Shown: positions 6,091 through 64,000 of the stretch, one piece after another
Numbering within the stretch: position 1 is the stretch's first letter
How the letters are laid out: each line of letters starts with the position of its first letter
Virus record (IMG/VR): IMGVR_UViG_3300042371_000495
Location: 1 to 64,000 of that record
Strand: one strand, 5' to 3'
Length of the DNA stretch: 64,000 nt
Source: a virus
Made by a program: the position numbers and the translations under genes
The notes under the pieces: model-generated
Database searches by the model: none
What the model saw: the letters and a program-made list of their open reading frames with translations, nothing else
What the model was told of the DNA's origin: nothing

Positions 6091-6094
6091 AATT

Positions 6095-6980: not shown

Positions 6981-7021
6981 GTTATTGGTGTGAAGTTAAT
7001 TGTTTTGAAAGAGTCGTTAAA

Positions 7022-7384: not shown

Positions 7385-7414
7385 AATGTAGTGGGTGGTC
7401 TCAGTTACAAGGGT

Positions 7415-7442
7415 ATCCTACCATACCAGGGGTCCAAGTACA
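7415..7442 (-). promoter_or_regulatory. Early/middle-type promoter with AC-rich leader
   Basis: Minus strand: TGTACT (7437-7442), 16-nt spacer ending TGG, TAGGAT (7415-7420). A 30-nt stretch between the -10 and the ATG at 7384 contains CTTGTAACTGAGACCACCC and ends TACATT. This is almost the same leader as at the promoter 19107-19134. Confidence 0.7.
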
Positions 7443-7491
7443 CATCTTTTTACATAAAAATGAAACTTTTTTCAATATCTCCAGACACCAA

Positions 7492-7517
7492 AATGGGGAC
7501 CCCGAAGGATCCCCATT
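7492..7517 (-). terminator. Rho-independent terminator with UUCG loop
   Basis: Minus-strand hairpin AATGGGGATCC / GGGTCCCCATT with a TTCG tetraloop (11 bp including one G-U pair), then a short T run. It follows the stop of the gene at 7531-7752 and precedes the promoter at 7415-7442, separating two transcription units. Confidence 0.75.
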
Positions 7518-7530
7518 GGGTTTCAATCAC

Positions 7531-7752
7531 TTATGCATTTACGAAGGAATAGAGTTCCTCGGCCCTCTCTAGGATCACCTTCGTCTTCGGGAACATCCCA
7601 TCGACCTCAGTCTCAGTGATCATCTTTTTTCTAGGGTCTTTATCTGCTTCGCATCGAAGCAAATCTAGCTTTTGATGGAATTTTGCCAGTTCATCGTCAT
7701 GCGCCATTTGTAGGACGTCAAGACGGATTTCATACGCGTTTTTATTACTCAT
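7531..7752 (-). CDS. Small helical phage protein
   Basis: 73 residues starting MSNKNAYEIRLDVLQMAHDD, an N-terminus seen in small proteins of several T4-like phages. Helical throughout, no catalytic motif. A terminator follows. The leader before the ATG is CACACACTACA, one of the AC-rich leaders of this genome. Confidence 0.6.
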   Translation of the reverse strand: MSNKNAYEIRLDVLQMAHDDELAKFHQKLDLLRCEADKDPRKKMITETEVDGMFPKTKVILERAEELYSFVNA

Positions 7753-7802
7753 TGTAGTGTGTGTGGTTAATGTAAAGGATCATCCTTCACATATCCTATA
7801 TA

Positions 7803-38967: not shown

Positions 38968-39885
38968 TTATGCGTCGTTAGGTTCCCCGAATGGGTTAGA
39001 TTCGCTGAAATCGATGACTGAATTCCCTTGATCTTCGAACGGAGTATTCTGGGCATTCGGATCATTGTTATATGCAAATTCATCTGTATCGCTTAATTCG
39101 AAGAGGGAAGTGATCGTCGAGACAAACCCAGAATCTTCTCCAGTGAGTGTAGTCCCGACGGTTAATTGATGGAATTGACCATCATCGAAGTTAAGTGTAG
39201 ACAGACGTTCAATGATCGTTTCGTCTTCTTTCCTTTTATATTCCAATAGTTCAGTATAACCAGTGACACCGGACGGTAATTCAATGAGAAGCTTCTCATT
39301 GATATTGTGCAGTTCGCCCTCTTCGAATTCGACCTCGGCATTGATCATCGTCGAGGAAGTACGCTGAAGCTTATCGACCTCGGCGATACCAGTATTGATC
39401 TCTTGATTTCCGTATTCGAAGTTCTCGCACGTAAGTTTGAATGTCGGCACGTTCTTTACCTGAAAGAACGGCTTCTTATCCTCGACGTAACGAATCTCAA
39501 ATAGCCCCTTCGAGAGTGGGATATAGATCAAGTCACCTTCACGTGGACGAACGGATTCCTTTGTAAATCCCTTATGCGCGACCAATTGATTCCATCTACG
39601 ACGACTAACAGCAAATGTGATTTGATCTCGAATCTCGAAACCAAATTTAGAATATAATTTTCCGTCTCCTTCGAGACCATCGATCGATTCGATATACATC
39701 TCGATCTTGAATGCCGAATCAAATTTACTTAAAGTATCTTCGTTGAGGATCGTATCGATAGAATAATATGAACGAGGCAAGTACCAGATATCAGTACCAT
39801 AGATTTGCATTGCCTCTATGATTAATTCTTCATAAAGATCTTGCTCGGATTTTACTCCATTGCTTATATAAATGTTTCGAGGCAT
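38968..39885 (-). CDS. 14: Neck protein (gp14)
   Basis: 305 residues. N-terminus ISNGVKSEQDLYEELIIEAMQIYGTDIWYLPR and central ISFAVSRRRW-like block (QITFAVSRRRWNQL) match gp14. It joins the head and tail with gp13. A late-promoter-like AATAAATA lies 12 nt before the ATG. Confidence 0.93.
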   Translation of the reverse strand: MPRNIYISNGVKSEQDLYEELIIEAMQIYGTDIWYLPRSYYSIDTILNEDTLSKFDSAFKIEMYIESIDGLEGDGKLYSKFGFEIRDQITFAVSRRRWNQLVAHKGFTKESVRPREGDLIYIPLSKGLFEIRYVEDKKPFFQVKNVPTFKLTCENFEYGNQEINTGIAEVDKLQRTSSTMINAEVEFEEGELHNINEKLLIELPSGVTGYTELLEYKRKEDETIIERLSTLNFDDGQFHQLTVGTTLTGEDSGFVSTITSLFELSDTDEFAYNNDPNAQNTPFEDQGNSVIDFSESNPFGEPNDA

Positions 39886-39897
39886 CTTTGGTATGCG

Positions 39898-39905
39898 TAT
39901 TTATT
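39898..39905 (-). promoter_or_regulatory. Late-promoter-like box upstream of gp14
   Basis: AATAAATA on the minus strand, 12 nt before the gp14 ATG. One mismatch and longer spacing than most, so weaker. Confidence 0.4.
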
Positions 39906-40656
39906 AGCCAATGAAGAAATCCGCAGGCATAGAGAAGCGAAGCTCGAATTCGGTCTCAATCTTCTCGATATCAGCCTTCGCTTCTTCATAAATCTTAGTG
40001 CCATTAATCGTGACTCCGCCTGGAAGTTGCATACCCTCGAACTTACTAAGGTTTTGACCCCACTGACGTTTTAATAACGCCGTTGTATATTTTTTCAGGA
40101 TCATGTCATTATAGATCTTTGGATATTCGACAGGATTCAAGGCGACGTATCCTTCCATAATGACGATCTTTCCGGCCTGAAGAGTGTGTTTCCAATCAAC
40201 AGCAATCGAGAGACGATTTTGGTGACGAGAGAAGATGATCTGCTGAGTCATACCATTCAACTCGAGCTCAATCATATTCATGTACTGTTTTGTAATCTCA
40301 TAGTTAACGATCGAACCTGGATCACGCAATGAATAAATGTCTGACATCATCATTTGATACTGGACCGAGAACAAATCTGTTCCCATCATTGATGAACCTT
40401 TCAATGGAAAGACGCGATTGACGTAGATCAACTCATCAGGAAGAGTGATGTACGTATTTTCAATATCCGCGGAGGTCAATGTATGCTTGACGAACGTACG
40501 AACCAACGCGTCCGAATGATAGGTCTGATAAAATTGAATGGCTTCATCGACGCGATCATTGATTTGCTCTTCGTCGAGGTTAATCTCTAGGACCGGAGCG
40601 CCTAATGAACGCAAACAATAATCAATGAGTCCTTGTCTTGTTGAAGGTGATGCCAT
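39904..40656 (-). CDS. 13: Neck protein (gp13)
   Basis: 250 residues. The N-terminus RQGLIDYCLRSLGAPVLEIN, then EQINDRVDEAIQFY, fixes both family and start: gp13 of cyanophage-type T4-like phages. Forms the head completion/neck ring with gp14. A TATAAATA box lies 6 nt before the ATG. Confidence 0.95.
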   Translation of the reverse strand: MASPSTRQGLIDYCLRSLGAPVLEINLDEEQINDRVDEAIQFYQTYHSDALVRTFVKHTLTSADIENTYITLPDELIYVNRVFPLKGSSMMGTDLFSVQYQMMMSDIYSLRDPGSIVNYEITKQYMNMIELELNGMTQQIIFSRHQNRLSIAVDWKHTLQAGKIVIMEGYVALNPVEYPKIYNDMILKKYTTALLKRQWGQNLSKFEGMQLPGGVTINGTKIYEEAKADIEKIETEFELRFSMPADFFIG

Positions 40657-46844: not shown

Positions 46845-48854
46845 TTATGGTTGATTGGTTACTACGTTCCATGCGCCGCCAGGTCGTGTACTCGATGTAA
46901 GTAATTGATAGTAATAATAACCATCATTGATGTTTGTGGTCGTTCTTATCGCCGAGACGCCGGCACCCGTAAGAGCTCCACTAGTTGCAGTCGTATACGT
47001 AAATACATTGGGATTACCAGTAGTTGTAATCGGAAATGTTCCTTTAAATGCTTCCTGAAAATTAGAGTCCGAAATCGTAGCAAGACCTGTTCCGATAAGA
47101 GCTCCGGTTCCAGTAGTCTGATATGTAAAATTATCGTTATCAATCTTTGTGATTGTAAATGTACCTTTAAATGCTTCCTGAAAAGATGTCTGACTTGTAT
47201 CACTAATAGTAACAGTATGAGTAGCATTAAAACCATGAGCAACTAAGTTGACAGTCACAACATTACCTACACGTACGAATTTAATGCCAGATGCTGTTTT
47301 TATATTCGAAGACGTTATGGTAACAAGTTGACCATTAGTATAACCATGCGCGCTGGGTAATGTGACTGACACTGTATTACCCGCGCGAATAAAACTACCA
47401 CCGGCCGGGTTTATTCGAGTGTAACCTGCTCCAATATTGATACCTGGCGCAAGAAGGGTTTGATTGCTTAGTCGATTTCCTCCCAGATTTAAGTATTTTC
47501 CTAATTGGGTATTTGTGGCGAGATGAAACGCCCTTAATATCTTATTAATAGAACCGACATCTAAATTCGTATTAAACGCATGAAATTTATTTAACGTGTT
47601 TGGCATCTGAGTGACGCTAAGTAGTGCTACAGCCGATTGATAGAGGCTGACTGCCGTATCATGGCATCTAAATGTTGCCAACACCGCTAAGCTATTTAAA
47701 TTAGGAATTTCTCCATTAACACCAGTAACACTTATACCTGCATTTGGAGTGTTATCATTGCAATTGAATTCTATTAAATTATTCAATCCAGTTAAAATCG
47801 GAATAGTACTACTAAGCCTATTATTACTACAATCAAATATCTGTAGGGTAGTAAGGGTGGATAAACTAGGAATAGAATCGGTAAGCTGATTACTCGCGCA
47901 CTTGAATATCTGTAAAGAAGTGAGTGTACTTAAATTCGGGATATCACCAAATATATCATTACCTCCACAATTAAAGTCTTTTAACGTAGTTAATCCAGCC
48001 AAACTTGGAATAGAATTACTAAGATTATTATCATGACAATGGAATGTTTCCAAAGAAGTTAAACCGACTCCGCTTAAAACTGGAATCCAACCGGTTAATA
48101 AATTATCATAACAGACAAACGTTTTTAATGCACTTAATCCAGTCAAATGTGTTCTTTCGGGTTGAATACTTCCAGTAAATGCATTTCTATAGCAAGAGAA
48201 TGTCTCCAAAGAAGTTAATCCAGCCAAACTTGGAATGCTTCCGCTAAGTCCACGACCCGGAGCGCTAAATTGTCCGGCGACATATAAGTTTTCATAACAT
48301 TGAAAATCAACAAGAGCAGTGAGTCCAGCCAATTCAGGAAGAGTTCCGGTTAACTCATTTCGATAACAATAAAATCTATCCAACAGTGTTAATCCAGTTA
48401 AACTTGGAACTCCGCCGGTATGTTTATTCTCATAGCAAAGATAGCGAGTCAATGAAGTCCGAGTGTTTATGTTCGTCGGAATTGTCCCAGTAATCTGATT
48501 ATTACCATAGTTAAAAACTGATATAGACCCAATTGGTGGAAAATTGGCATTTGATATAGTTCCTGAAAGATTATTTGTATATAATCTAAAATATTGTAGT
48601 GCGGTCATCGCACTTAAATTAGGAATTGAACCCGTAATCAAATTATTAAACGCCTCTAATGTATGTAAACTTTGAAGGTTTTTATAACCAGTAAGCGCTG
48701 AAATATTGTTATTATTACATTTAAACGAAGTCAAGTTTACAAACGGAGATGTATCTATTGAACCACCTAGTTTTGCAGTAACTGTTGATGCCCCGCATTC
48801 AATTGATTGAACTGCCGCTGGACCTTTTTTAGGAAGTAATCTAATTGTTGGCAT
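46845..48854 (-). CDS. Leucine-rich-repeat tail protein with C-terminal beta repeats
   Basis: 669 residues. About 30-440 holds leucine-rich repeats of a different type from the 42038 gene (units such as LTSLETFSCYRNAFTGSIP with Asn ladders). The C-terminal about 200 residues contain repeated beta modules with HGY/HGF...DNFTYQ signatures and two copies of FQEAFKGTF. The combination suggests an adhesive fibre. No signal peptide. It ends the run from 48858-50589. Confidence 0.75.
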   Translation of the reverse strand: MPTIRLLPKKGPAAVQSIECGASTVTAKLGGSIDTSPFVNLTSFKCNNNNISALTGYKNLQSLHTLEAFNNLITGSIPNLSAMTALQYFRLYTNNLSGTISNANFPPIGSISVFNYGNNQITGTIPTNINTRTSLTRYLCYENKHTGGVPSLTGLTLLDRFYCYRNELTGTLPELAGLTALVDFQCYENLYVAGQFSAPGRGLSGSIPSLAGLTSLETFSCYRNAFTGSIQPERTHLTGLSALKTFVCYDNLLTGWIPVLSGVGLTSLETFHCHDNNLSNSIPSLAGLTTLKDFNCGGNDIFGDIPNLSTLTSLQIFKCASNQLTDSIPSLSTLTTLQIFDCSNNRLSSTIPILTGLNNLIEFNCNDNTPNAGISVTGVNGEIPNLNSLAVLATFRCHDTAVSLYQSAVALLSVTQMPNTLNKFHAFNTNLDVGSINKILRAFHLATNTQLGKYLNLGGNRLSNQTLLAPGINIGAGYTRINPAGGSFIRAGNTVSVTLPSAHGYTNGQLVTITSSNIKTASGIKFVRVGNVVTVNLVAHGFNATHTVTISDTSQTSFQEAFKGTFTITKIDNDNFTYQTTGTGALIGTGLATISDSNFQEAFKGTFPITTTGNPNVFTYTTATSGALTGAGVSAIRTTTNINDGYYYYQLLTSSTRPGGAWNVVTNQP
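47035..47185 (-). repeat. Direct repeat encoding FQEAFKGTF modules
   Basis: The plus-strand phrase CCTTTAAATGCTTCCTGAAA occurs twice about 120 nt apart inside the LRR gene, marking a duplicated beta module near the C-terminus. Confidence 0.7.
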
Positions 48855-51608: not shown

Positions 51609-52493
51609 ATGTCAGCGCTACAAAATGCTCCAACGAACGATTTCATTGAATTTAGGAAAAACATATTATCATCATTTAAAGTAAACGACGATATTATGAC
51701 AGCTCTTCAGATCGTCGATATCAACGTGACCGAATTATGTACGCGTAAATGTGTATTTTGCCCTCGACATGATTCTAAGATCTATCCGAATAGAAAATTA
51801 AATATGTCTAAGGAAACGTATTTAAAATTGGCAAAAGATCTTGCTGAATTCAATTATGCCAATCAAATAGTGCTGGCCGGATTTAGTGAACCGTTACTGC
51901 ATAAAGAAATCTTTGAAATCGTAAATACCTTTAAATCGCATCTGCCGAATAATAAAAACCTAACGATCACCACTAACGGGGACGTGTTGACCGAAAAGAC
52001 GGTACACGGTCTTTTCGAAAATGGATTAGATTTACTCAAGATGAGTCTATACGATGGACCAGAACAAGAAGATCATTTCTTAAAATTATTTGATAAGTGC
52101 GGTATTGACTCTAGCAAATATATCATAAAACGATTTTGGTACGGTCCCGAACAAGAATACGGCATGGCTGGCATCAGCAATCGAGTAGGAATGATGAAAT
52201 TAAACGATAAAGATATTCCTAAAAGGGCATGTTTCATGCCCTTCAATTCGGCGTTTATTGATTGGAACGGAGATGTATTATTATGTACTCACAATTGGAG
52301 TAAAGACATAAAGCATGGAAACATTAACGATTCATCGTTAAAGGATGTATGGTTAGGGGAAAGTGTGAGTAAGATTAGGAAACACCATCTTGAATTTGGG
52401 AGATGCGGAATAAATCCTTGCCAAAATTGCGAGGTGCACGGGCAAGTATATGGAGAAAATAGTTTTAATGCGTTTAAGAAATTTTATTCTTAA
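51609..52493 (+). CDS. Radical SAM/SPASM enzyme A
   Basis: 294 residues on the plus strand from ATG at 51609 (earlier in-frame codons lie in the promoter region). The [4Fe-4S] motif CTRKCVFC (Cys44, 48, 51) starts the radical SAM barrel. The C-terminal cysteines (ACFMPF, LLCTHNW, CGINPCQNC) form a SPASM-type auxiliary cluster. Target unknown, perhaps a peptide or sugar. It is related to the enzyme at 54102-54965 and starts the A+T-rich island. The island lies inside a fibre gene region. Confidence 0.88.
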   Translation: MSALQNAPTNDFIEFRKNILSSFKVNDDIMTALQIVDINVTELCTRKCVFCPRHDSKIYPNRKLNMSKETYLKLAKDLAEFNYANQIVLAGFSEPLLHKEIFEIVNTFKSHLPNNKNLTITTNGDVLTEKTVHGLFENGLDLLKMSLYDGPEQEDHFLKLFDKCGIDSSKYIIKRFWYGPEQEYGMAGISNRVGMMKLNDKDIPKRACFMPFNSAFIDWNGDVLLCTHNWSKDIKHGNINDSSLKDVWLGESVSKIRKHHLEFGRCGINPCQNCEVHGQVYGENSFNAFKKFYS

Positions 52494-53145
52494 AATCGAA
52501 CCAAACATTTGAATATTCGCAATCTTTATATTCATCCAACCATGGACCTCCTTCTGTAAAATGAAGAGCTTTAGGAGATCCATCTTGGGGTTCTTTGTAA
52601 TAATCTACTAACCAATTCCATTCTAGAGGTAAAGAACCAATTTCGTCATCTTCTAAATATTTGAATCGATGTAAAAACGCTCCCGATTGATTATTGATTG
52701 TCAATGGATTTAACGTTTTTATTTTTGGGTGTTCGTTATTAAACATCATAAGACTACTCCAATTTTTCTTAGGAAATATTGATTGTATCTTATTATTCAT
52801 TTTTATATTACTAGTGGGCACATAATCATGCTTACAACACATCACTGCGTATCTCGAATCATATGATTCGATTAGTTTATCGATTGAATCTAAAAATAAA
52901 AAATCACCATCACAAAAAATACTTATTCCTTTAAAGTCGCATAAGTACGGCGCAAAAAAACGAGCAAACGCGAATGGAGTGCTTTCATACATATCCTTTA
53001 TTCGATCATACTCTTTAACTGTGTTATAGTTAATTGGGTGTATATTAATATCGTATTGACTATTAGAAGTGATGCTGTATTTACACACATCATATGATAT
53101 TTTTTGAGATTCATCTAATCCAATAAATATATTAATTTTTTGCAT
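52474..53145 (-). CDS. Glycosyltransferase, GT8-like
   Basis: 223 residues. FARFFAPYLCDFKG, then FCDGDFLFLDSI with the metal-binding DGD (near residue 80), SSLMMFNNEH, and a C-terminal HFTEGGPWLDEY block follow the plan of GT-A, GT8-type enzymes found in phages and cyanophages. It transfers a sugar from a nucleotide sugar; donor and acceptor unknown. A+T-rich codon use. Its 3' end overlaps the plus-strand radical SAM gene by 20 nt (convergent). Confidence 0.72.
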   Translation of the reverse strand: MQKINIFIGLDESQKISYDVCKYSITSNSQYDINIHPINYNTVKEYDRIKDMYESTPFAFARFFAPYLCDFKGISIFCDGDFLFLDSIDKLIESYDSRYAVMCCKHDYVPTSNIKMNNKIQSIFPKKNWSSLMMFNNEHPKIKTLNPLTINNQSGAFLHRFKYLEDDEIGSLPLEWNWLVDYYKEPQDGSPKALHFTEGGPWLDEYKDCEYSNVWFDFKNKIS

Positions 53146-54124
53146 ACTCGATAAGTTTTTTGGTTTTCAATAATATTGCTATGACATCGATACCCTGAAT
53201 ATGCCCTTTAAAAAGCCAATTAACAAAATTACTTTTAGGTAATATTTTTTCCAACTTGGGTTTTAATATTCTTATTAATGCAAAAAAATCTATATAACCC
53301 GATGATGATTCTTGAATATACAGATAATCCGTAATTAAACTATCGAAATCTCCTTTACTTTTATATTGGTATAACGTATCGTTGCCTTTAATTTTTGTAC
53401 TGATATTAATATCATTTTGATTATAATATTCGGTTGTTATGATACCATATTTTTCATAAAAATATTTTTTATAGGTATTATCTCCGCTTATTAAGATTAA
53501 ATTTTTATATGGAGTATGATTAATGATATAATCAATGATTTTATCGTAAACTTCGATATCATGATTATCCTTAAGTCTGTATGAAGGCAGGTTGATAAAA
53601 TAATAATTTATATTAAATTTTTTTATTTTTGCGTGATCTAATACTATTTCATTTTTTAAAATTAATTTATGATCAGATGCGATATTATTGTAATTATTAT
53701 AAAATATCTTTTGCAAATCATATGCTGTATTTTTAAATATTTCTTTAATGGTAGTATCGAATATTACGTTATGATTCAAATTATCATATTGATTATAACA
53801 TAAATCGTTATAATGGTATACACCGAATAATTTATTTAAATAATAATTGTATTCATTATTATTTTTTTTATCTGGAAAATTATCATTTTCTCCTCGTATA
53901 TTGCGTATAAGCGATATTGATTTAAATGATGCGTTATTTTGAATATTTTTTAGCGTATAATAGTCTGTATCACAAAACATATTACATATACTATCATTTA
54001 CATAAAATTTATTATCAGTATCGGTATAACATAATAAAAACAATATACCCATCATGGCATCAGTATAGGTTAACTGATCCCTGATTGTTTCTGTAAAAAT
54101 ATTATATTTTGAAGAAGTTAACAT
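53132..54124 (-). CDS. Unknown island protein, possibly transferase-like
   Basis: 330 residues, extremely Asn/Lys/Ile/Tyr-rich (A+T-driven). The C-terminal half has a Rossmann-like segment NLILISGDNTYKKYFYEKYGI followed by an acidic DFDSLITDY. A similar SGD...K-F..KY block is in the protein at 55553-56455. This might be a GT-B, fucosyltransferase-like domain, but that is a weak inference. Confidence 0.5.
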   Translation of the reverse strand: MLTSSKYNIFTETIRDQLTYTDAMMGILFLLCYTDTDNKFYVNDSICNMFCDTDYYTLKNIQNNASFKSISLIRNIRGENDNFPDKKNNNEYNYYLNKLFGVYHYNDLCYNQYDNLNHNVIFDTTIKEIFKNTAYDLQKIFYNNYNNIASDHKLILKNEIVLDHAKIKKFNINYYFINLPSYRLKDNHDIEVYDKIIDYIINHTPYKNLILISGDNTYKKYFYEKYGIITTEYYNQNDINISTKIKGNDTLYQYKSKGDFDSLITDYLYIQESSSGYIDFFALIRILKPKLEKILPKSNFVNWLFKGHIQGIDVIAILLKTKKLIEYAKN

Positions 54125-54965
54125 ACTTTATCCCTACCTTTTCTCCGTTTATATTACATTTGTTACATACTTTAAGGTTTCTATTTCCCTCCTTAAGATG
54201 TTTTCTATATGTGTTTAGAAAATCCGAGGTCCATATCTCTTCAAGAGTATGCGTATTAATGTTCAATGTAGTCTTTGATAGTTTAAACCAATCTTCGCAA
54301 CAGACGATTATATCTCCGTTCCAATCCATAAAGAGTTTATAGAACGGCAAGTAGCATTTATTGTTTCTATGTTCACTGACTTTATCGTCGTTAAGCTTAA
54401 CTGCGCCAGCTCTATTTGTAAAATCTTTAAAGTTATCGGAATGATAATAACTTTTCCTTAATGTGTATGTGCTGCTATCATAATCTTTAAATAAATCTAA
54501 AAATTTATTTAGACTACTATCTCCATCATATACACTAACGACGATTTGATTTATTCCGCTATCGTAAATATCTTTAATTATTTTTTCATCAAGTTTATCG
54601 CCATTTGTATTAAGTTCAATAGTTTTTATCTGGGGATTTTCGCTACTAATGATATTGACTAAATTTAAAAAGTTTTTGGTCAATAAGGGTTCTCCATTTC
54701 CGGACCAACCGATTCTATTTCTATAATCATTAAGTTTGAGCTGGGCTGATAAATTTCTAATTGTTTGCTCTGATATATGCAAATTTTGATTCGGGTATAC
54801 CGAAGAATCGCTTCGAGGACAGAAATGGCATGACCTATTGCACAGTTCGGTCGGGTTGATTGTGATGGACTGTAGAGCGTTTAGCGGGAGTAACTCTTGA
54901 TTGACAGAATATTCCGTTTGTTTTTTGCGCAATTCAATAATATCATTTTTATTTTCTGCTATCAT
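54102..54965 (-). CDS. Radical SAM/SPASM enzyme B
   Basis: 287 residues. CNRSCHFC (Cys42, 46, 49) carries the radical SAM cluster. C-terminal cysteines (KCYLPF, IVCCEDW, KVCNKCNINGEKVG) form a SPASM-type domain. It shares segments with enzyme A (INPTELC/NVTELC, GEPLL/SEPLL, TNGD, DWNGD) and is a diverged paralogue. Opposite orientation to A. It lies 13 nt from the divergent 2OG oxygenase gene. Confidence 0.88.
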   Translation of the reverse strand: MIAENKNDIIELRKKQTEYSVNQELLPLNALQSITINPTELCNRSCHFCPRSDSSVYPNQNLHISEQTIRNLSAQLKLNDYRNRIGWSGNGEPLLTKNFLNLVNIISSENPQIKTIELNTNGDKLDEKIIKDIYDSGINQIVVSVYDGDSSLNKFLDLFKDYDSSTYTLRKSYYHSDNFKDFTNRAGAVKLNDDKVSEHRNNKCYLPFYKLFMDWNGDIIVCCEDWFKLSKTTLNINTHTLEEIWTSDFLNTYRKHLKEGNRNLKVCNKCNINGEKVGIKYVNFFKI

Positions 54966-54978
54966 TATAGATATCTAT

Positions 54979-55563
54979 ATGAAAATATCAAATATTACGT
55001 GTGATAGTTCTCCATTTAATTATTATTCATTTTCTGATGTTTTTTGCGAAAATGAATTAAATCAGATAGTAAACATAGATTTATTTAAACACTCTGCTAA
55101 ATTAGAAGGGGAACGTGCCTCGAATACAAATAGGTTTTTTGCCAATGATGAAAATAGAAAAAACCACGAGATCATAGATCATATCATAAACTATTTTTCT
55201 GATAGTGAAGTGATATCTCATTTTGAAAATGAATCAGGCAGAAAAATTTCTGGTAATTATTTACGAATTGAATTTATCGCAGATACCGAATCATCTTGGT
55301 TAAAACCACATGTCGATATCAATGAAAAGATAATGTCAATGATGATATATCTAAACACCACTGATGAAAATCTAAATATCGGTACATCAGTGTATGATGA
55401 AGATATGAAATTAGTAAAAACTGTTCCTTACATACATAACACCGGTTTTTATTTCTATCCTAGTCACAATACCTGGCATGGGTTAGAACCAATAAAAATA
55501 AAAACCAGTAGAAAGGCGATAATGGTTAATTATTGTACTTTTAAAACCGAATTTACTGTATAG
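54979..55563 (+). CDS. 2-oxoglutarate/Fe(II) oxygenase
   Basis: 194 residues on the plus strand from ATG at 54979. The facial triad is His111-x-Asp113 (KPHVDINEK) and His167 (NTWHGLEP), with Arg178 (KTSRKAIMVNY) to hold 2-oxoglutarate. A small, single-domain hydroxylase-type protein; substrate unknown (peptide, sugar or lipid). It is transcribed away from the adjacent radical SAM gene B, in a 13-nt divergent gap. Confidence 0.82.
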   Translation: MKISNITCDSSPFNYYSFSDVFCENELNQIVNIDLFKHSAKLEGERASNTNRFFANDENRKNHEIIDHIINYFSDSEVISHFENESGRKISGNYLRIEFIADTESSWLKPHVDINEKIMSMMIYLNTTDENLNIGTSVYDEDMKLVKTVPYIHNTGFYFYPSHNTWHGLEPIKIKTSRKAIMVNYCTFKTEFTV

Positions 55564-56455
55564 TAATATTATTTTTAAAATAATTTACGGCAATATCAAA
55601 AGGACTGATTAAATTAGAGGATATAAAATTTACATTTGAAAATAATAAATTTAATTCTGGGAATTCAATTCTTAAATCGTGTAAAGATTGAAAATCGGTA
55701 AAACTGCAATTAATAATATCATAAAAAATATTTAATGAAGCGCCGCGAGTTATAAATTGCCCTAGGCTCGCAGCATATTTAGTTTCATATTCGTGAATAA
55801 TTTCTATATTATTAATACCATTATATTTGGAATTAAAATGTTTTAACATTTTTGCATCCCCGGAAACAAAAAATAAAGAGTGTTTGGGGTATTTTTTGAT
55901 TTTATTTTTAATAATATAATCCCAAAGTTCATATACTGGTTGCTGATGATTGCAATCATTTACATTACGTAAATTAAATGAAAGAATATTTTTTTCATAC
56001 TTATTAAAAATAATATTAGGGTGTTTCTCAATGGAGATTGTTTTGTTAGGAATATTGAAAAATTCATTTGTATTGATTTTTCTCAATAAATTCCATTGTT
56101 TTATAGGAATGCAGTTTTTCTTCAAGGAAAGGAGATCCGTATAGAAATTGCAATTCGATATATTTAAATCATTTATATATTTGGTTTTTATTAAAATTTT
56201 AAGTTTAGTAGAATATTCCATTTGAGAATATTTTATATAATTCGGTCCAGCTAAAAAATTACAATAATCGGAATCAACAGGTATTAATCGCGCACCCGTA
56301 TTTAATTTTTCAGCAAATTCCAACTGACTATCTTTTATAAAATAAATTAAATTATAATTATTTTTTTTACAATAATCATCGCATACCAATAACTTTAACA
56401 AATTACTACTCAACCCTACGGGTTTACAATATACGATTGATTTATGACAACTCAT
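55553..56455 (-). CDS. Unknown island protein, fucosyltransferase-like fold possible
   Basis: 300 residues, A+T-driven composition. A Rossmann-type FFVSGDAKMLKHFNSKY segment near residue 195 and an N-terminal GLSSNLLKLLVCDDYCKKNNYNLIYF resemble GT-B transferases such as O-fucosyltransferase-like proteins. The match is suggestive only. It overlaps the GT29-like gene by 14 nt upstream and the 2OG gene by 11 nt at its 3' end. Confidence 0.5.
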   Translation of the reverse strand: MSCHKSIVYCKPVGLSSNLLKLLVCDDYCKKNNYNLIYFIKDSQLEFAEKLNTGARLIPVDSDYCNFLAGPNYIKYSQMEYSTKLKILIKTKYINDLNISNCNFYTDLLSLKKNCIPIKQWNLLRKINTNEFFNIPNKTISIEKHPNIIFNKYEKNILSFNLRNVNDCNHQQPVYELWDYIIKNKIKKYPKHSLFFVSGDAKMLKHFNSKYNGINNIEIIHEYETKYAASLGQFITRGASLNIFYDIINCSFTDFQSLHDLRIEFPELNLLFSNVNFISSNLISPFDIAVNYFKNNITIQ

Positions 56456-57026
56456 ATATTTTATTTTTACTAACTAACTTTTTTACACATATCCTTTCGT
56501 ATATATATGGATGTCTATTTCCCAGATTTCTATTATGATTTGGATTAAAATAATAACCGCTTTTAAAGAAATCAAACCCGTAAATATAGATTTTATAATG
56601 CGGAAATAATTTTAAAATTAAAAATATAGTTCTAAAACCTAGTGAAAAATTATTATCATACAAGTCTATGTTATGCGATAGATTAGTTTTAAAGAAATCG
56701 GTTATCTCAATGTCATCATTTCGAGTATGTGTATGAATAACATTCTCTAAGTTTAAATTAACAGTTGGAACTACCCTAGTTTTATCATCTAAATTATAAT
56801 GATTTACTAATATTAATTTTTTGTCTTTATCACCCTCTCTGATATTATAATATATTGTCGATACAATATCTGTTTTACTTCCCGCACATTCTTTAAACCC
56901 AGTAATATTATATTTTCCGACTCTAACTACAGTATTAAACTTATCAATTTTTTCTCCTAATTTTTTATTTAATATTTCGTAAGAATTACCAATTATTAAA
57001 ATGCTTTCATCATAATTAATATTCAT
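56442..57026 (-). CDS. GT29-like (sialyltransferase-type) protein
   Basis: 194 residues from ATG at 57026 (a TTG at 57035 is also in frame). Sialylmotif-like segments are visible: ILIIGNSYEILNKKLGEKI followed by FNTVVRVGKYNITGF and GSKTDI (large motif), and later ILKLFPHYKIYIYGFDFFKSG (short-motif-like) with His residues near the end. It could transfer a sialic-acid-like sugar. A+T-rich. Confidence 0.7.
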   Translation of the reverse strand: MNINYDESILIIGNSYEILNKKLGEKIDKFNTVVRVGKYNITGFKECAGSKTDIVSTIYYNIREGDKDKKLILVNHYNLDDKTRVVPTVNLNLENVIHTHTRNDDIEITDFFKTNLSHNIDLYDNNFSLGFRTIFLILKLFPHYKIYIYGFDFFKSGYYFNPNHNRNLGNRHPYIYERICVKKLVSKNKIYELS

Positions 57027-57073
57027 TGTTTTCAATGATATATTATTGAATTTTATAATGAGCTATTGATATT

Positions 57074-57664
57074 TTAATTATTTAAAAGCTGTTGAAATGG
57101 AGAAGGATTCAACAATGTAGGCCACTTTTGCATAAAATTTTGTAGATCTATTTTAGATAATTCATTTGCGATGAAATCTTTAACGTTGTTTTCTAAATCA
57201 CTCTTAGTTGAATTAATTTCTAAAATAACCGTTTCATCATTTTCAGCCGAGATCAATTCATCTAGTATGGAAGTCGCTTTTTTCAATTCAATATTAATCA
57301 GATCAACCAATGATTTTTGGAATATTTTAAGAGGGACATCATCTAATACATTGTATTTTGTTATGTTTAAAGCTTTTAAACATTTTAAATTGATATATCG
57401 ACTATACACCCTTTGCAATTTAAATAATTGCTTCTTTTCAGCCTTTGTTAATTGATCATCATTTTTTATAAGCGTCAAATATTTTAAAGTATTTTCATAC
57501 CCGGCATAAGTTAAATTACTAACGCAGTATGCATCTTTCTTTGGAACAATTATCTCAGAATCAGTTAAAATATCTACAAAAATATAATTTTTATCATCAT
57601 TTCTCACATTTGTACCACGGTACAAAATATCTCCATTTTCATTACTAATTTCTATAAATTGCAT
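57074..57664 (-). CDS. Hypothetical protein, possible fibre chaperone
   Basis: 196 residues. N-terminal beta-like part (about 1-60), then a helical C-terminal coil. A+T-rich but less extreme than the island. It lies directly after the tail fibre gene at 57677 and has a late-like AATAAATA box 6 nt before its ATG. It might assist fibre assembly, as many phages place a chaperone after the fibre. Unproven. Confidence 0.55.
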   Translation of the reverse strand: MQFIEISNENGDILYRGTNVRNDDKNYIFVDILTDSEIIVPKKDAYCVSNLTYAGYENTLKYLTLIKNDDQLTKAEKKQLFKLQRVYSRYINLKCLKALNITKYNVLDDVPLKIFQKSLVDLINIELKKATSILDELISAENDETVILEINSTKSDLENNVKDFIANELSKIDLQNFMQKWPTLLNPSPFQQLLNN

Positions 57665-57670: not shown

Positions 57671-57678
57671 TATTTATT
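57671..57678 (-). promoter_or_regulatory. Late-promoter-like box, leaderless geometry
   Basis: AATAAATA on the minus strand (one mismatch), 6 nt (TCTATT) before the ATG at 57664. It overlaps the stop of the fibre gene. Confidence 0.5.
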
Positions 57679-58966
57679 AAAAGGTTGTGCTAGATTCTCG
57701 TGGATCAGTAGAATAAGTAATAAAATCACAACCAACTATCCGGCTTATTTTACCGCTACGATGGTCCCTTATCTGAACATGTACGCCACCATAATATACA
57801 TAACTATTAGCGAATGCTATATCCAAATTAGATGCGAGTGTAAATCTTGGTAAAGAATTCAGTGAAACTGGAAGATAGAATTCGGATTGGGTAATTAAGA
57901 TTCCATTATAACCTCTTAATTCAACAAAAATCTGATAGGATCCATCCACAGCGTAAAACCCGGCGCCAGCTAAATCAGTTAATTCCAAATCCACATAAGC
58001 ATTATTTCCGGTGAGGTATACTTTTTGCCCCTCGTACCCAGATTCTCCAACAGTCCATACTGTTCCGTGCGGCTGAAACGATCTTCCGGCATAGTCATTT
58101 GCAAATGCAGCGACTGTTGCCGTTGCTGAATTTCCTGTACAAGAAGCGGCTGTCGTAGCACTCGTAGCATTTCCAGTGAGGTTACCCGTAATAGGACCGG
58201 TTGACGTTAATGAAGTACAATTGATAGTTCCACCAGCAATTGTACCAGTAGTGCTTATCGTTCCTGTACCAGCATTCAATGATCCTCCAATAATTGCACC
58301 AGTTGTGCTAATCGTTCCGCTACTAGCTCCTAATGATCCGCAATAGATTGCACCAGCGGTGCTTATCGTTCCTGTACCAGCATTCAATGATCCACCCGTA
58401 ATTTCGCCAGTCGCGGAAATTGCGCCTTGAACCTCAAATGCATTGGTAGTAGCAACTCTATTGATACCTACTCTACCTTGGCCGATAACGACGCCGTGCT
58501 GGCTATTAGACCATTTTCCGATGATTATATTTTGTGTATCAGAATTCGATGAACCAGCTATGATCGAATAATCACCGGCGGCGACTAAAGGATTGAATGA
58601 TCCAATAGTAGAATTCGGATTAAATCTTAAAATACGGCTTGAACTCGTGATGCTCAATGCCGGAGCAGCGGATGCTGTACTAGCAACATTAATCGACGAT
58701 GACAATCCTGAGGTGAATCCACCTTTTACAATGAATCCGCCAACGGTGCCGTTAGTCGTCACCGTTCCGGTGGTTTGATCCCAGCTTGGGGCAGGAGGCG
58801 CCAACTTGATGGATTGAATAGTGAGATCGGCAATGTCAGCGTTCGTTATGATCGATTTGTAACCCGCGATATGACCATTTGTCTTTTTACGCCAGACATC
58901 AAATGTGTCGGTAATATTTACACCATCTTGCCACGTCGGGTCGATATCGTTCTGAAGGATAGGCAT
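57677..58966 (-). CDS. Tail fibre protein with short glycine-rich repeats
   Basis: 429 residues. N-terminus MPILQNDIDPTWQDGVNITDTFDVWRKKTNG is typical of T4-like fibre proteins. A repetitive middle (about residues 180-255; units such as GGSLNAGTGTISTTG) forms beta-structure. The C-terminal about 150 residues are probably the receptor-binding part. A CATAAATA box lies 6 nt before the ATG. Confidence 0.8.
   Translation of the reverse strand: MPILQNDIDPTWQDGVNITDTFDVWRKKTNGHIAGYKSIITNADIADLTIQSIKLAPPAPSWDQTTGTVTTNGTVGGFIVKGGFTSGLSSSINVASTASAAPALSITSSSRILRFNPNSTIGSFNPLVAAGDYSIIAGSSNSDTQNIIIGKWSNSQHGVVIGQGRVGINRVATTNAFEVQGAISATGEITGGSLNAGTGTISTAGAIYCGSLGASSGTISTTGAIIGGSLNAGTGTISTTGTIAGGTINCTSLTSTGPITGNLTGNATSATTAASCTGNSATATVAAFANDYAGRSFQPHGTVWTVGESGYEGQKVYLTGNNAYVDLELTDLAGAGFYAVDGSYQIFVELRGYNGILITQSEFYLPVSLNSLPRFTLASNLDIAFANSYVYYGGVHVQIRDHRSGKISRIVGCDFITYSTDPRESSTTF
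58225..58420 (-). repeat. Short tandem repeats in fibre gene
   Basis: The plus-strand phrase TTCCTGTACCAGCATTCAAT is repeated about 108 nt apart, and related 54-nt units lie between. They encode GTGTIST-type blocks and could expand or shrink by slippage or recombination. Confidence 0.7.
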
Positions 58967-58980: not shown

Positions 58981-59206
58981 GTTGATTCGTTGAAGCAGAC
59001 ACGATCTGGGCAACTAATTCCTTTAGCGCCGCGATTTCTTCTTCAAGTGAAACGATACGTTCTTGTTCTTTCATCTGAGACTGTGTACGTGCCACGGCCA
59101 TTGCATATCCGTGCGAATCCCGATTTAGGATCGCACTGGATTGTGTATCACGTTCCAACGAAGGTTCATCTTCCACTTGTATCTTTAATTTTGATTTACG
59201 CGCCAT
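58976..59206 (-). CDS. Small coiled-coil protein
   Basis: 76 residues. A basic N-terminus (MARKSKLKIQVEDEPS) leads to a C-terminal coiled coil (SLEEEIAALKELVAQIV). It overlaps the end of the DUF4815-type gene by 11 nt. Possibly a trimerising or assembly cofactor. Unknown function. Confidence 0.55.
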   Translation of the reverse strand: MARKSKLKIQVEDEPSLERDTQSSAILNRDSHGYAMAVARTQSQMKEQERIVSLEEEIAALKELVAQIVSASTNQP

Positions 59207-62200
59207 ATGTTGCTATTGCTCTAAAGTCTTTTACTGATGGGACATTCGCCCCGTTTGTGATTGCCGAGGTAAGTACGATCTTCACGCTGAATCGTGAGAA
59301 TAACCTTCCCGGAGAATATGTATATGATATCTCACTGTAGTTATCAGTATTCGAAGATACCGGCAAGATCGTCGATGGTGATATAAGCGTCCATGGTTCG
59401 TTGGCATATATCGCTTCGTCTCGAATCTGAGCCTTAACGTATACCGATATATTCTCAGATGCCGTAGGACGATTCGCCGCGATGTATACATTCAGCTGAT
59501 TCGCCGAATTATTTAGGTCGACCGTACGGGTGATGTATCTGGCAGAAGCCGCTCCCTTATCCTGAATCTCCTCGTTCGTAACATCTACATTGATTTCATT
59601 ATCGATCAGTAACATCGAGGTTCTATCCGTATCGATGTATGGTGACAAATACTTGGTATCGGTAGCGAGGTATCCAGTAAGAGTGATTCCATCTTTAAGC
59701 GTAGTAAATCTACGATCAAACTCGATCGTCTCATTGACATTGATATCGTATTCAAATAATTGCGGGCTTGATGGGACCGTGATATCATTGATAGATAATT
59801 TCCAGAGGATTTCGGTATTATTCTGTACAATGTTCTCGACTGTGGTTCTAAGAGAAGAGAAAGATACTGTCTCTGATGGATTCACCGCATTCAACGCTTG
59901 TAACTTTACTTCCTTGATGGATGCTGATGTATCAAAATCCGCGCGATATATTGTGAATGTGATATCTTTACTTTGATCGGCCGTCCAGGTCGAACCGTTC
60001 TGACTCTTAAACATCACACCGGCATAAGGGTTCTTGGCAATGATCTGTGTGTTTCCAAGAACGACATTTTCTTTTCCGACCTCTGACACGTATGTCATAT
60101 AATCCGAATCATTTGATAATACGACGAATGCATATTCTACACCCGGTTGTAAGTATACTGGAGCGTCGAAGGTAAATGTTGTAGGTAACCATTCATTTAC
60201 ATCTAGTGGATTAGCAATCACTACATCAGCAGCATCCTTAGTTATGGAAGAAAACGGAAGGATGTTTTGTGTAGGCATACCATTTTCCATAGTTACGACA
60301 TACACCGATACTGGTACACCCTTCGTCGACTTTTTCTTGAAATATAAGTCGAGTTTGGTGATATATGCACCATCAACTTGATTTTTATCAAGGATAAACG
60401 ATTGGGCCAATGGATCGTAATAGCATATTTTTGCCCTTTTGGCGGCGCCGAAGTAGCCGATGCCCGGTTTGATGGCGTCCCGCTTGGAGGAGTAACGAAA
60501 CCAGTCCGAGGTGTCTATGCGAAAAACGTCTGATTCTGAAACACGGGCGGTATCAAACTTAGCGACGCGCGTCGAGAGGATTGTATTTTCTTTTGTCTCT
60601 AACACACCTGAAGCATAATACTTTGTCTCGGCAGATGTGGTAAAATCGATTTCATCGTTCGAGGGAGAATCGATAAGTTTGAAAGACCTCTCGCCAGTAT
60701 TAAACTTAAGTGAACTATGATTCGGAATGATGAAATATCCAGCTGCCTTTCCGGTATCATCTGAGATAATCGGAGTAGATGCGATCAACCCGAGTGGGTT
60801 ATCATTACCATCATAGATCGTACTATCTGTCTGATCTTTAAACGGAACGAATGGGACCGCATTGACACCGATTTTAGTAACGGTATAAGCGCTAACATCG
60901 ACGCCGTCAAAGAAGGGATAGACGCGGGTCATAGGCTTCAATCGTTCGGCCTTGAAGTAAACCTTACGTGAACGAATGAAAGGAACGTAACTGATGTCGA
61001 CTACCTTTTCACCAAAGCTTTGGGTATTGTCAGTATATGACAGCGTCGTACGAGTACCATCACGAATACCTGTAATTTTTTTCTTTTTCAGCCACGACCA
61101 TGACCACCATTTTTTATTAATTCCAGACCAATTATATTCCCATTCATTCCAGTGATATCCTAAGATACCTGACTCCTCTGCCTTAAGGGCTATCGCGTCA
61201 TATGCCGAGGTATCATTGATAATGACTTCCGGTCTAACGACTGTAGATTTCCATTCATCAGATGAAGGCGAAAGTTCGACTGTGCCATTCCAGACTTGCA
61301 TATCAAACGGATTGACGCTTTCGGCATTTGCCGTGGCGAAAGATTGTTTGATTAGTTCGACATTCGTATATGCAATAGACGTCGTATTATCATTACTATT
61401 TAATAAAGGATTCGTATTGACGCCTGAATCGATTTTGAGGTCGAGGTTTCTCGTGGTATAATACGGACGTAAGATACCGTTGACCTGATCGATACTGCAC
61501 TTATGCCCTACGTTCTCGACGTCGGCGATGTTATGACCAAAGAAACTATCGACTAAAATCCCGTTCTTATATCTTTCGAGTCCACCTGATGTCAGGATTT
61601 GTTTATCTTGAGCAGATTTTTCTAAGAGGGACAGAGAAGTATAGTATTCAATATTGGCCACTCGCTTCTCGATAGCACCGATGTCACGCATGGTGTATCG
61701 CTTATTGTCGACGAAGCTCGGTATGATATCGGCAGTGGAATACGTATAAGCCGGGATATAGAGGCTATATAGACTCATTGAATCTCCGGGAATCGCCGGA
61801 GCGATAGGATTGATCGATGAAATACCTTCAGCGATATAAATCTGACCCGAACTATTGACTAGGACGTTGTCGATCCGCGGAAGGTAATATTGAACCGTCG
61901 CGACGATCGTCGAGTTTGAGTCGAGACGCACCGCCGAAGCAGGAGAATTATCAAATCTAAAATCGATAGAGTCCGATAAGCGATTACCATTGAAAAAGGG
62001 GATATCCTCTAAATACGAACCGCTATATGAATTGACAATATACGGAAGACCTGTTGCAGCCGTATGAGGGTAATAATTGTATGTGATCGCTAACGTTCCA
62101 GTAGTCGGCGTAGAAGAAGTATAGACGAGTAGCGGAGCATTAAAATGATTGAGCGACGCGCCATCTTCGATCGAAAATCCGGTCACGATTGAATCCATGG

Positions 62201-64000
62201 TTCCACCGGTCGTATCTGCTCCGGTTATGTCTATCACCGAACCACCTAAGGTAAGCGACAACTGAAAATCATTTGTATTCTTATTGACGACATAGTATGT
62301 CACTCCGGTTGATATACCAGTAGCCGTACCGAGCGCTGTGAATAAAACTTTATCTCCGTTTACTAATCCGTGTGTAGCAAGTGTAACTTTGTTATCGGCA
62401 ACGACCCAACCGACTGATCTTCCAGTATTTTTCACCAAGACCGAGGAAGCGACGATATCGAGATTGTTTAAAGCGATCATGTTATATGATTTCATCACGC
62501 CTGAATGAGCACCTCCTCCACCCGCATCAACAAGGAGGATAATGGGTCCATCACTGGTCAGAGACAATTGGAAATCACCGGCTGTACGATTTCTAACATA
62601 ATATGGTGTATCAATGTAAATTCCTGTCGTATTCGTAGTAATAGAAGTAAATATTACCCTATCACCATTAGAGAGACCATGTGCAGTCAATTCGACAGTT
62701 TCATCGCTCATAGTAAACGTAACTGCTCTACCAGTGAGTGCAGAATATGTGGCCGTAGTCGCCGTCTGTGTCGCAGTTGTCAGCGGTGCTTTACTATTAA
62801 AGACATTTGTGACTGTATACGGGGCGATTACCGATACATTTTGCGACGTATTTGCAGATGAGCCGTTTATTAATAGCCATACTCCGGTACCAGCATCTAT
62901 ATAGACGGCAGTAACCGGAATAGGAGAACCGCCGTCATGATCGATGACGATGTAGTCAGTCAACGATTGACTTTCAAATTTTCCTGCAGGACCTGAAGTT
63001 GGATGCGCGATATTTAACCATTTACCATTAATTGTATTAACTGTCGTAGTCGTGGGGATCCTACTAAAGAATTTACGAACTCCGTATCTCAGTGATGTGA
63101 TCGATTTAACAGCATCAAAAGGAAATTTAAAAATATTTGTATTGTTCCCCGAATCGTATAGTGCAAATCCTCCGCTATTCGTGAATCGTGCATTTGTCCC
63201 AGTAGCGCCATCAAGTGCTAAACATTTGGCTGCTAAGAGATTAAAAGAGTCTTGCAAGACAAGATCGTAGATAAAGATCTGAAATACGGTGGAACTTATA
63301 TATTCGATGTTACGAATTTTACAAGTACCGATGAATGTTCCGCTTCCTGCTTCTGTACTATAAAGATTAAAGGTAAGTCCTGCATTACATATATCCGGAA
63401 GTTGCGTATTATTCGCAAACGTCATACCTGTAGTGAGGATATAGTTGCCTTGTGCAGCAGTGAAAGAAACATTTTCGACCGATTGGTAACTTCTGGCTTT
63501 ACTGCCTGTCAAGTCTTTGCGATCCGTCAAGGCGACGCGATAACCTTTAACATATGCCACGGATGGTTCAATGCCAGCGATATACTTTGATTTTGATAAT
63601 CCGACTCGTTCACCTTCAAGGACATTCGGAAATAATGCAGCTAATTCACTCTCGGCGTATTTTCCAAAATTAGAACCAGTGTTATAATGTTCACGCATCG
63701 CCAATTTGAATGGGCGAACGCTATAGTTACCAGATTCTTCGTATGTACGAGTAGCGAGTATATCATTTAGAGAATTCGCTTCAGAGGTATTTGCCGCAGG
63801 ACGAGCCGGCGTAAGTACTTCTGAATCGACGATGATCAACAACTTTGTGAAATCATAATTCGGTTCCTCGGTGACGAGTTTAAGTTCAAGTGAGATGGCT
63901 TGTCGATCCGCACCTGGAGCACTAAAGTTTGGGGAACCAGTAGCATTATCATATAGCGTATTATCAATGAGCGGTGTGACGATCGATTCGGCAATCTTAA
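59196..64000 (-). CDS. Large tail/baseplate-associated protein, DUF4815 type, 5' end outside window
   Basis: At least 1,601 codons, open to the right edge without a start. The most upstream visible residues include LYDNATGSPNFSAPGADRQAISLEL, cited in part as SPNFSAPGADR, typical of DUF4815 proteins of cyanophage-type myoviruses. Two modules near residue 400-560 share the pattern HGLxNGDxVxF...DFQLSLT. The C-terminal part carries DTDRTSMLLID and further beta domains. It is probably the largest fibre or baseplate protein of the virion. Confidence 0.82.
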   Translation of the reverse strand, partial: KIAESIVTPLIDNTLYDNATGSPNFSAPGADRQAISLELKLVTEEPNYDFTKLLIIVDSEVLTPARPAANTSEANSLNDILATRTYEESGNYSVRPFKLAMREHYNTGSNFGKYAESELAALFPNVLEGERVGLSKSKYIAGIEPSVAYVKGYRVALTDRKDLTGSKARSYQSVENVSFTAAQGNYILTTGMTFANNTQLPDICNAGLTFNLYSTEAGSGTFIGTCKIRNIEYISSTVFQIFIYDLVLQDSFNLLAAKCLALDGATGTNARFTNSGGFALYDSGNNTNIFKFPFDAVKSITSLRYGVRKFFSRIPTTTTVNTINGKWLNIAHPTSGPAGKFESQSLTDYIVIDHDGGSPIPVTAVYIDAGTGVWLLINGSSANTSQNVSVIAPYTVTNVFNSKAPLTTATQTATTATYSALTGRAVTFTMSDETVELTAHGLSNGDRVIFTSITTNTTGIYIDTPYYVRNRTAGDFQLSLTSDGPIILLVDAGGGGAHSGVMKSYNMIALNNLDIVASSVLVKNTGRSVGWVVADNKVTLATHGLVNGDKVLFTALGTATGISTGVTYYVVNKNTNDFQLSLTLGGSVIDITGADTTGGTMDSIVTGFSIEDGASLNHFNAPLLVYTSSTPTTGTLAITYNYYPHTAATGLPYIVNSYSGSYLEDIPFFNGNRLSDSIDFRFDNSPASAVRLDSNSTIVATVQYYLPRIDNVLVNSSGQIYIAEGISSINPIAPAIPGDSMSLYSLYIPAYTYSTADIIPSFVDNKRYTMRDIGAIEKRVANIEYYTSLSLLEKSAQDKQILTSGGLERYKNGILVDSFFGHNIADVENVGHKCSIDQVNGILRPYYTTRNLDLKIDSGVNTNPLLNSNDNTTSIAYTNVELIKQSFATANAESVNPFDMQVWNGTVELSPSSDEWKSTVVRPEVIINDTSAYDAIALKAEESGILGYHWNEWEYNWSGINKKWWSWSWLKKKKITGIRDGTRTTLSYTDNTQSFGEKVVDISYVPFIRSRKVYFKAERLKPMTRVYPFFDGVDVSAYTVTKIGVNAVPFVPFKDQTDSTIYDGNDNPLGLIASTPIISDDTGKAAGYFIIPNHSSLKFNTGERSFKLIDSPSNDEIDFTTSAETKYYASGVLETKENTILSTRVAKFDTARVSESDVFRIDTSDWFRYSSKRDAIKPGIGYFGAAKRAKICYYDPLAQSFILDKNQVDGAYITKLDLYFKKKSTKGVPVSVYVVTMENGMPTQNILPFSSITKDAADVVIANPLDVNEWLPTTFTFDAPVYLQPGVEYAFVVLSNDSDYMTYVSEVGKENVVLGNTQIIAKNPYAGVMFKSQNGSTWTADQSKDITFTIYRADFDTSASIKEVKLQALNAVNPSETVSFSSLRTTVENIVQNNTEILWKLSINDITVPSSPQLFEYDINVNETIEFDRRFTTLKDGITLTGYLATDTKYLSPYIDTDRTSMLLIDNEINVDVTNEEIQDKGAASARYITRTVDLNNSANQLNVYIAANRPTASENISVYVKAQIRDEAIYANEPWTLISPSTILPVSSNTDNYSEISYTYSPGRLFSRFSVKIVLTSAITNGANVPSVKDFRAIATYGA

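Follow-up and report, generated by a model that had tools for sequence, protein, structure and literature searches.

An A+T-rich island among fibre genes

The IMG/VR virus record IMGVR_UViG_3300042371_000495 is 67 kb long, and the 64 kb analysed here (positions 1 to 64,000, referred to below as the window) contain T4-like genes for a DNA polymerase, clamp, major head protein, portal, sheath and terminase. The source is a T4-like myovirus, an aquatic-type virus of bacteria. Between two of its fibre genes lies an A+T-rich island of eight intact, tightly packed genes, several of them overlapping and none with a predicted membrane segment, which encode two radical S-adenosylmethionine (SAM) enzymes, a 2-oxoglutarate (2OG)-Fe(II) oxygenase, four putative glycosyltransferases and a protein named H. 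This set recurs as a unit in other viral contigs, always together with a near-invariant peptide motif close to the C-terminus of H. Its features are as follows.

51609..57664 (no strand): putative glycan cassette, A+T-rich, about 6 kb, flanked by two fibre genes; delimited by G+C content and by a gene set kept in other viral contigs
51609..52493 (+): rSAM_A, twitch-type radical SAM enzyme, BtrN-like; variable member, missing from some cassettes; Pfam PF04055 6e-15, PF13186 3e-14
52474..53145 (-): GT8-like glycosyltransferase; core member; phrog_28018 9e-48
53132..54124 (-): gene C, homologue of F; variable member; hhalign of the C and F families
54102..54965 (-): rSAM_B, twitch-type radical SAM enzyme, BtrN-like; core member; Pfam PF04055 2e-12, PF13186 1e-10
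54979..55563 (+): 2OG-Fe(II) oxygenase, prolyl-4-hydroxylase-like; core member; PF13640 1e-6, above the curated cut-off
55553..56455 (-): gene F, predicted GT-B enzyme in the fucosyltransferase superfamily (NodZ/FUT8/POFUT/FUT1); core member, present as a duplicate in some phages; AlphaFold2 and VIA-align
56442..57026 (-): GT29-like (sialyltransferase-family) glycosyltransferase; core member; PF00777 2e-8, above the curated cut-off
57074..57664 (-): gene H, 196 aa, proposed carrier or acceptor; AlphaFold2; present in all cassette loci uncut by a contig end
57095..57124 (-): WPTLLNPSPF motif near the C-terminus of H; motif identity and IMG/VR motif scan

The G+C content of the island is 28.1%, against 42.8% in the remaining window, and the 6-kb windows outside it average 43.2% (standard deviation 1.7%, minimum 38.1%), which makes it an extreme outlier. 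The cassettes of other contigs are also richer in A+T than their flanks, with a weaker contrast where the flanks are near 35-40% G+C, so that the A+T-richness is partly a property of the cassette genes themselves.

A sequence-only reading of this DNA had already described a block of clearly lower G+C, and the figures above bear this out. All of the genes that it reported are intact open reading frames where it placed them, and its labels of paralogous radical SAM/SPASM enzymes, 2OG oxygenase and GT29 stand with Pfam matches above curated cut-offs. The GT8-like label holds in part: the match to phrog_28018 is strong (E 9e-48), while the Pfam GT8 score falls short of its cut-off (14.7 vs 24.3 bits, E 0.02); on the strength of the phrog match and a DGD motif, we call the protein GT8-like only. 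Two proteins said to share an SGD-K-F-KY segment, here C and F, are indeed related (hhalign 95.8%, E 8e-9). The reversed orientations apply only to rSAM_A and the 2OG oxygenase gene, which oppose the late-gene direction, whereas the other six genes follow it. The island was also correctly located, but its end moves to 57664, since gene H (57074-57664, minus strand) belongs to the conserved unit.

Conservation of the cassette across viral backgrounds

Scans of IMG/VR, covering 2.9 million contigs, returned 17 loci with rSAM_B, 16 of which carry the same gene set in largely the same order. The H motif yielded two more cassette contigs, bringing the total to 18, and a fragment (L020) was found in addition with rSAM_A; near-duplicate contigs reduce the 18 to about 14 distinct loci. 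The sequence-only reading had proposed a search for this neighbourhood in other phages, with homologues scattered singly as the outcome that would speak against a functional set. Gene order proved to be conserved in 18 other viral contigs.

The linkage is strict for several members. The DNA scan for the H motif hit 18 contigs, all with the cassette, and the GT29 profile recovered exactly the same 18; the former scan relied on known motifs, which leaves it blind to degenerate versions, and the latter is independent of the motif. Family profiles of F and C matched 16 and 8 contigs, respectively, all among the 18, and scans with the single C and F proteins found no relatives. Relatives of the GT8-like and radical SAM proteins occur outside the cassette as well, on their own. 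In every locus uncut by a contig end, the core comprises H, the GT29-like protein, F, the 2OG oxygenase, rSAM_B and the GT8-like protein, and the variable genes are rSAM_A, C, a further gene of 180 aa and a module encoding an aminotransferase, a KdsB-type synthetase and a HAD phosphatase.

These loci fall into three genomic backgrounds: one resembling the window (L003, L013/L021, L020), group B, made up of L004-L012 and L018, and group C, which consists of L014-L017 and, as similar loci, L029 and L032. Between backgrounds, no similarity of the flanking proteins is detectable beyond PhoH, shared by B and C. A fibre-like protein is constantly adjacent to H, although of a different type in each background, and no sequence feature common to all three types was found. 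In the other contigs, which are fragments, few matches to T4-type head, sheath and terminase families appeared; the taxonomic hints are, for group B, a marine T4-like marker and, for group C, a relative of a baseplate protein of Microcystis phage Mel-JY01.

The arrangement of the cassette is not rigid. In L007, L008, L010 and L011, the GT29-like gene is relocated between rSAM_B and the GT8-like gene. Moreover, L004 and L010/L011 are ~96.5-97% identical in DNA over 9-12 kb, yet carry different cassette variants, which points to recombination at the cassette position. L004 also encodes, at 9425-9967 (-), a protein of 172-180 aa and no known family, situated between the 2OG gene and the rSAM_B or C genes; homologues occur in L005, L006, L009, L012, L016 and L018, and the window has none.

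Protein H and its C-terminal motif

Protein H has 196 aa in the window and up to ~240 aa elsewhere. Its AlphaFold2 model (predicted local distance difference test, pLDDT, 82) comprises a small beta N-domain, a helical middle and a flexible C-terminus, of pLDDT about 60, that bears the motif. Across 13 representatives, the motif WPTLLNPSP(F/Y) is 93% identical, compared with 28% for the rest of H and 46% for the best other 10-residue window. The contrast is sharper between backgrounds, where the motif remains 90% identical and every other part of H drops to 6-22%. Because 15 distinct DNA versions encode the motif, with freely varying synonymous codons, selection acts on the peptide. As the backbones and fibre proteins differ between backgrounds, the simplest place to seek the partner that keeps the motif constant is the cassette itself, among its enzymes.

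We considered H as a known tail chaperone or a member of another known family and rejected this, with no Pfam match, no convincing PHROG match and no structural match above background. Relatives of H were found in no phage record by tblastn, and the H profile matched nothing in the annotated phage loci examined.

Predicted enzymes of the cassette

The two radical SAM enzymes are paralogues (37% identical), and their Pfam matches (E 6e-15 to 1e-10) exceed the curated cut-offs. Across 20 family sequences, the CX3CX2C radical-cluster motif (C42, C46, C49) and four auxiliary cysteines (C204, C222, C267, C270) are invariant. The best PDB match of the family profile is BtrN, over residues 27-277 (E 3e-34), a twitch enzyme of butirosin biosynthesis with a four-cysteine auxiliary cluster that oxidises an aminocyclitol (PMC9012708). 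In peptide maturases such as PqqE, by comparison, the SPASM domain typically holds two auxiliary clusters (PMC9012708), and just four invariant cysteines lie in the C-terminal domain of the cassette family, as for a single cluster. A two-cluster SPASM maturase was therefore ruled out as the leading reading by the four cysteines and the BtrN match. Judged by sequence, rSAM_A and rSAM_B resemble BtrN, a carbohydrate dehydrogenase, more closely than peptide maturases. The likeness consists of a near-full-length match and the three plus four invariant cysteines; the substrate of BtrN is a free aminocyclitol in an antibiotic pathway.

Bacterial relatives of these enzymes have nucleotide-sugar dehydratases, cytidylyltransferases, GT2 glycosyltransferases and methyltransferases among their neighbours. 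None of 80 such loci, inspected with 10-kb flanks, contains H, F or C, and only isolated pairs of cassette members occur: a BtrN-like gene with a GT29-like gene in Bradyrhizobium nitroreducens (L060, 9860-11478), and one with a GT8-like gene in Verrucomicrobium sp. (L073, 9027-10828).

Four proteins are putative glycosyltransferases. The GT8-like family has an invariant DGD and a C-terminal HxTxGGPW. In the GT29-like protein, the L, S and HxxxxE (VS) motifs are present, with invariant G, N, S, H and E positions that include H175 and E180, and its profile matches PDB sialyltransferases at E 1e-4 to 1e-3, some over nearly the full length; such an enzyme would use a sugar donor activated with cytidine monophosphate (CMP). 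The profile of F has no PDB sequence match at E 1. Its AlphaFold2 model (pLDDT 79, predicted template modelling score 0.82) was compared with known structures by VIA-align, and the top 25 rows are all fucosyltransferases (NodZ, FUT1, POFUT1/2, FUT8; Z 8.2 to 11.3). The match to NodZ has Z 11.3 and a root-mean-square deviation of 3.7 over 219 aligned residues, and heptosyltransferases rank lower. F is thus predicted from its model to have a GT-B fold of the fucosyltransferase superfamily, and C, because it is homologous to F, is probably a GT-B enzyme of the same fold. These probable fucosyltransferase-fold enzymes, together with H and its motif, are additions to the set recognised by the sequence-only reading.

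The 2OG oxygenase has a complete HxD...H...R signature, with H111, D113, H167 and R178 invariant in 15 sequences. Its sole PDB sequence match is the prolyl 4-hydroxylase domain 9ei6, at a weak E of 2e-5.

Sister loci add genes of sugar supply. In L008, a KdsB-family CMP-sugar synthetase scores above the NCBIfam subfamily cut-off (247.7 vs 193 bits) and adjoins an aminotransferase and a HAD phosphatase; L013 has homologues of all three, and the aminotransferase is also present in L007 and L010. From these genes, it is plausible that some cassette variants involve a CMP-sugar and an amino sugar. The L008 cassette (3147-8127) is expanded, with two extra BtrN-like radical SAM genes beyond rSAM_B in addition to the synthetase module.

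Genomic setting in a host recognition cluster

In pelagimyophages, a host recognition cluster extends from VrlC to the neck genes; it combines fibres with glycosyltransferases, most of them GT8, and some genomes have radical SAM cassettes there as well (PMC7029224). The window has this layout, with a variable region of fibre and glycosyltransferase genes between the two borders.

38968..40656 (-): neck genes (head closure Hc2, head-tail adaptor Ad2), one border of the cluster; phrog_460 6e-76, phrog_211 2e-39
57677..58966 (-): fibre-like protein adjoining H; unrelated fibre-like proteins lie at the same place in the other two backgrounds
59196..63842 (-): VrlC/DUF4815 protein, the opposite border; tblastn to VrlC of marine T4-like phages, phrog_358 6e-266

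The best tblastn relative of the VrlC/DUF4815 protein is in Pelagibacter phage Mosig, and a search of the 'phages' collection found no near DNA relative of the window. The fibre region also encodes, at 46845-48854, a 669-aa protein with many leucine-rich-repeat-like units and weak PHROG matches only, which is a candidate receptor-binding protein.

Proposed function of the cassette

The sequence-only reading had suggested that the set could build or modify a glycan or a peptide. The first half of this proposal is well supported, given the four putative glycosyltransferases, the BtrN-like radical SAM enzymes and the KdsB-type synthetase, aminotransferase and phosphatase of sister loci, and the product of the cassette is likely to be a glycan; the peptide half fares less well, as the radical SAM enzymes look carbohydrate-type rather than peptide-type. 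What the glycan is attached to is a more tentative matter. The explanation that we favour, while placing it a little short of an even chance, is that the island forms a mobile cassette for glycan assembly, whose target is its own carrier, H, in the tail-fibre region of the particle. We propose H as the acceptor, with the same reserve, because its motif offers Pro, Ser/Thr, Asn and Trp residues and the core supplies three transferases and a radical SAM enzyme of sugar type besides the prolyl-4-hydroxylase-like oxygenase.

On this proposal, the oxygenase would hydroxylate a residue of WPTLLNPSP(F/Y), most simply an invariant proline. The GT8-like protein, F, C and the GT29-like protein, enzyme classes assigned from sequence or predicted fold, might then build a chain on the hydroxylated residue or on a Ser/Thr of the motif, in this or another order. 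Considering the chemistry of BtrN and the gene content, the radical SAM enzymes may oxidise sugar hydroxyls, from which the aminotransferase of some phages could yield amino sugars. Finally, the position of H suggests that the decorated protein, at or with the adjacent fibre, would alter adsorption, stability or recognition of the virion. The constant parts (the H motif, GT29-like protein, F, 2OG oxygenase, rSAM_B and GT8-like protein) would make the linkage and core, and the swappable parts (rSAM_A, C, aminotransferase, CMP-sugar synthetase and phosphatase) would vary the outer sugar. In its most specific form, in which the C-terminal decapeptide of a dedicated carrier is hydroxylated and then given a radical-SAM-modified chain, as a hydroxyproline-linked glycan on a bacteriophage, the proposal is unlikely.

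Several points weigh against this explanation. Both the modification of H and its presence in the virion are things that we infer, and the motif could be a docking site instead of an acceptor. The hydroxyproline step hangs on one weak prolyl 4-hydroxylase match (E 2e-5). The island of the window contains no CMP-sugar synthetase, and the host would thus be the source of the donor. The recovery of the same 18 contigs by different scans is bounded by the sensitivity of the pattern scans and by the content of IMG/VR, and it represents ~14 distinct loci. Lastly, the nucleotide-sugar and surface-glycan type genes around bacterial relatives of the radical SAM enzymes fit a glycan of the host surface equally well.

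The main alternative is in line with this last point: the cassette may remodel a host surface polysaccharide, the O-chain or core of lipopolysaccharide, against other phages, with H as an accessory. We regard it as possible, although on the unlikely side. The corresponding region of pelagimyophages also holds glycosyltransferases, most of them GT8, for which this is the published interpretation (PMC7029224), and two sister loci encode a KdsB-type synthetase, which points to sugars like 3-deoxy-D-manno-octulosonic acid (Kdo). The dehydratases, cytidylyltransferases, GT2 enzymes and methyltransferases next to bacterial radical SAM relatives are in keeping with it, as are the bacterial pairings with a GT29-like gene and with a GT8-like gene (one locus each). 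However, a flippase, a polymerase, a membrane-anchored transferase and any predicted membrane segment are absent from the cassette, and a host-surface target leaves unexplained the strict linkage of H, the near-invariant motif and the constant fibre-like neighbour in three backgrounds.

That neighbour might itself be the acceptor, with H as a chaperone or adaptor that recruits the enzymes through its C-terminal motif. The constant adjacency would then be accounted for, and so would the group-specific divergence of H outside the motif, as expected if each H suits a different fibre. We nonetheless consider glycosylation of the fibre distinctly unlikely, since no common acceptor is apparent and no shared feature was found in the fibre-like proteins of the three backgrounds.

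We find it very unlikely that H is the precursor of a ribosomal peptide whose WPTLLNPSPF core is cross-linked or epimerised by the radical SAM enzymes and released as a small bioactive peptide. A conserved core that ends a divergent, leader-like protein linked to radical SAM and 2OG enzymes does recall such precursors; the enzymes, with four auxiliary cysteines for a single cluster and BtrN as their best PDB match, are unlike two-cluster SPASM maturases (PMC9012708), no recognition domain, protease or exporter is seen in the cassette, and H is long (196 to ~240 aa) and folded in the AlphaFold2 model. Highly improbable is a role of the oxygenase and glycosyltransferases in hypermodifying phage DNA bases, by analogy with T4-related phages, which, as described in PMC6024577, glycosylate DNA with transferases of their own: the oxygenase is prolyl-4-hydroxylase-like with no Tet_JBP match, and the island sits among late fibre genes without a DNA methylase or hydroxymethylase.

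Glycosyltransferases are common in marine T4-like phages, and they have been assigned to host lipopolysaccharide by default; the cassette supplies its own candidate acceptor, a short peptide motif. Should H be modified as proposed, a phage that pairs radical SAM oxidation of a glycan with a prolyl-hydroxylase-like enzyme would arrive at exotic glycans by an unusual route, and a constant core with swappable tailoring genes could drive antigenic or receptor variation.

Relation to known systems

The sequence-only reading knew of no described phage system with this combination. In the material searched, the exact set is indeed without a match, but cassettes of glycosyltransferase and radical SAM genes at this position are known from pelagimyophages (PMC7029224). 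Both share the position in a T4-like genome and the association of fibres with such genes. The pelagimyophage cluster is a non-syntenic variable region, read as acting on the host O-chain (PMC7029224), whereas the cassette described here is a fixed gene set, with co-inherited H, in three backgrounds. Glycan genes in the host recognition cluster of T4-like phages are thus known, and what is new is a conserved, transferable cassette to which a carrier-like protein bearing a candidate acceptor peptide is linked.

Two other systems resemble parts of the proposal. Mycobacteriophage Che8 and its relatives encode glycosyltransferases linked to glycans of virion proteins (cited in PMC11256854); the account given there concerns putative glycosyltransferases only, with the major capsid protein as target, and reports no radical SAM enzyme, oxygenase or dedicated carrier. 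In Dictyostelium, a prolyl-4-hydroxylase-type oxygenase forms hydroxyproline on Skp1, and glycosyltransferases then extend a chain (PMC3515798). The likeness lies in the pairing of oxygenase and glycosyltransferases, with the hydroxyproline step in the phage being a proposal; Skp1 is a eukaryotic cytosolic regulator, and its pathway is without radical SAM enzymes (PMC3515798).

Campylobacter phages CP220 and CPt10 possess an interchangeable module whose radical SAM enzymes are related (28-29% identical); it differs in combining five radical SAM genes with a glycine amidinotransferase (PMC2853527). Campylobacter phage CP20 carries a matching copy (L024, 279-5834), in which the BtrN-like gene has a glycine amidinotransferase and several further radical-SAM-like open reading frames as neighbours; the radical SAM gene was the only cassette member seen there. 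In Synechococcus phage S-SCSM2R, a HisC-like aminotransferase gene lies directly ahead of a radical SAM/SPASM gene, close to tail genes (L045, 7127-8741), and a separate locus of the same phage (L023) has a GT8-like gene with KdsA, KdsB and 2OG oxygenases.

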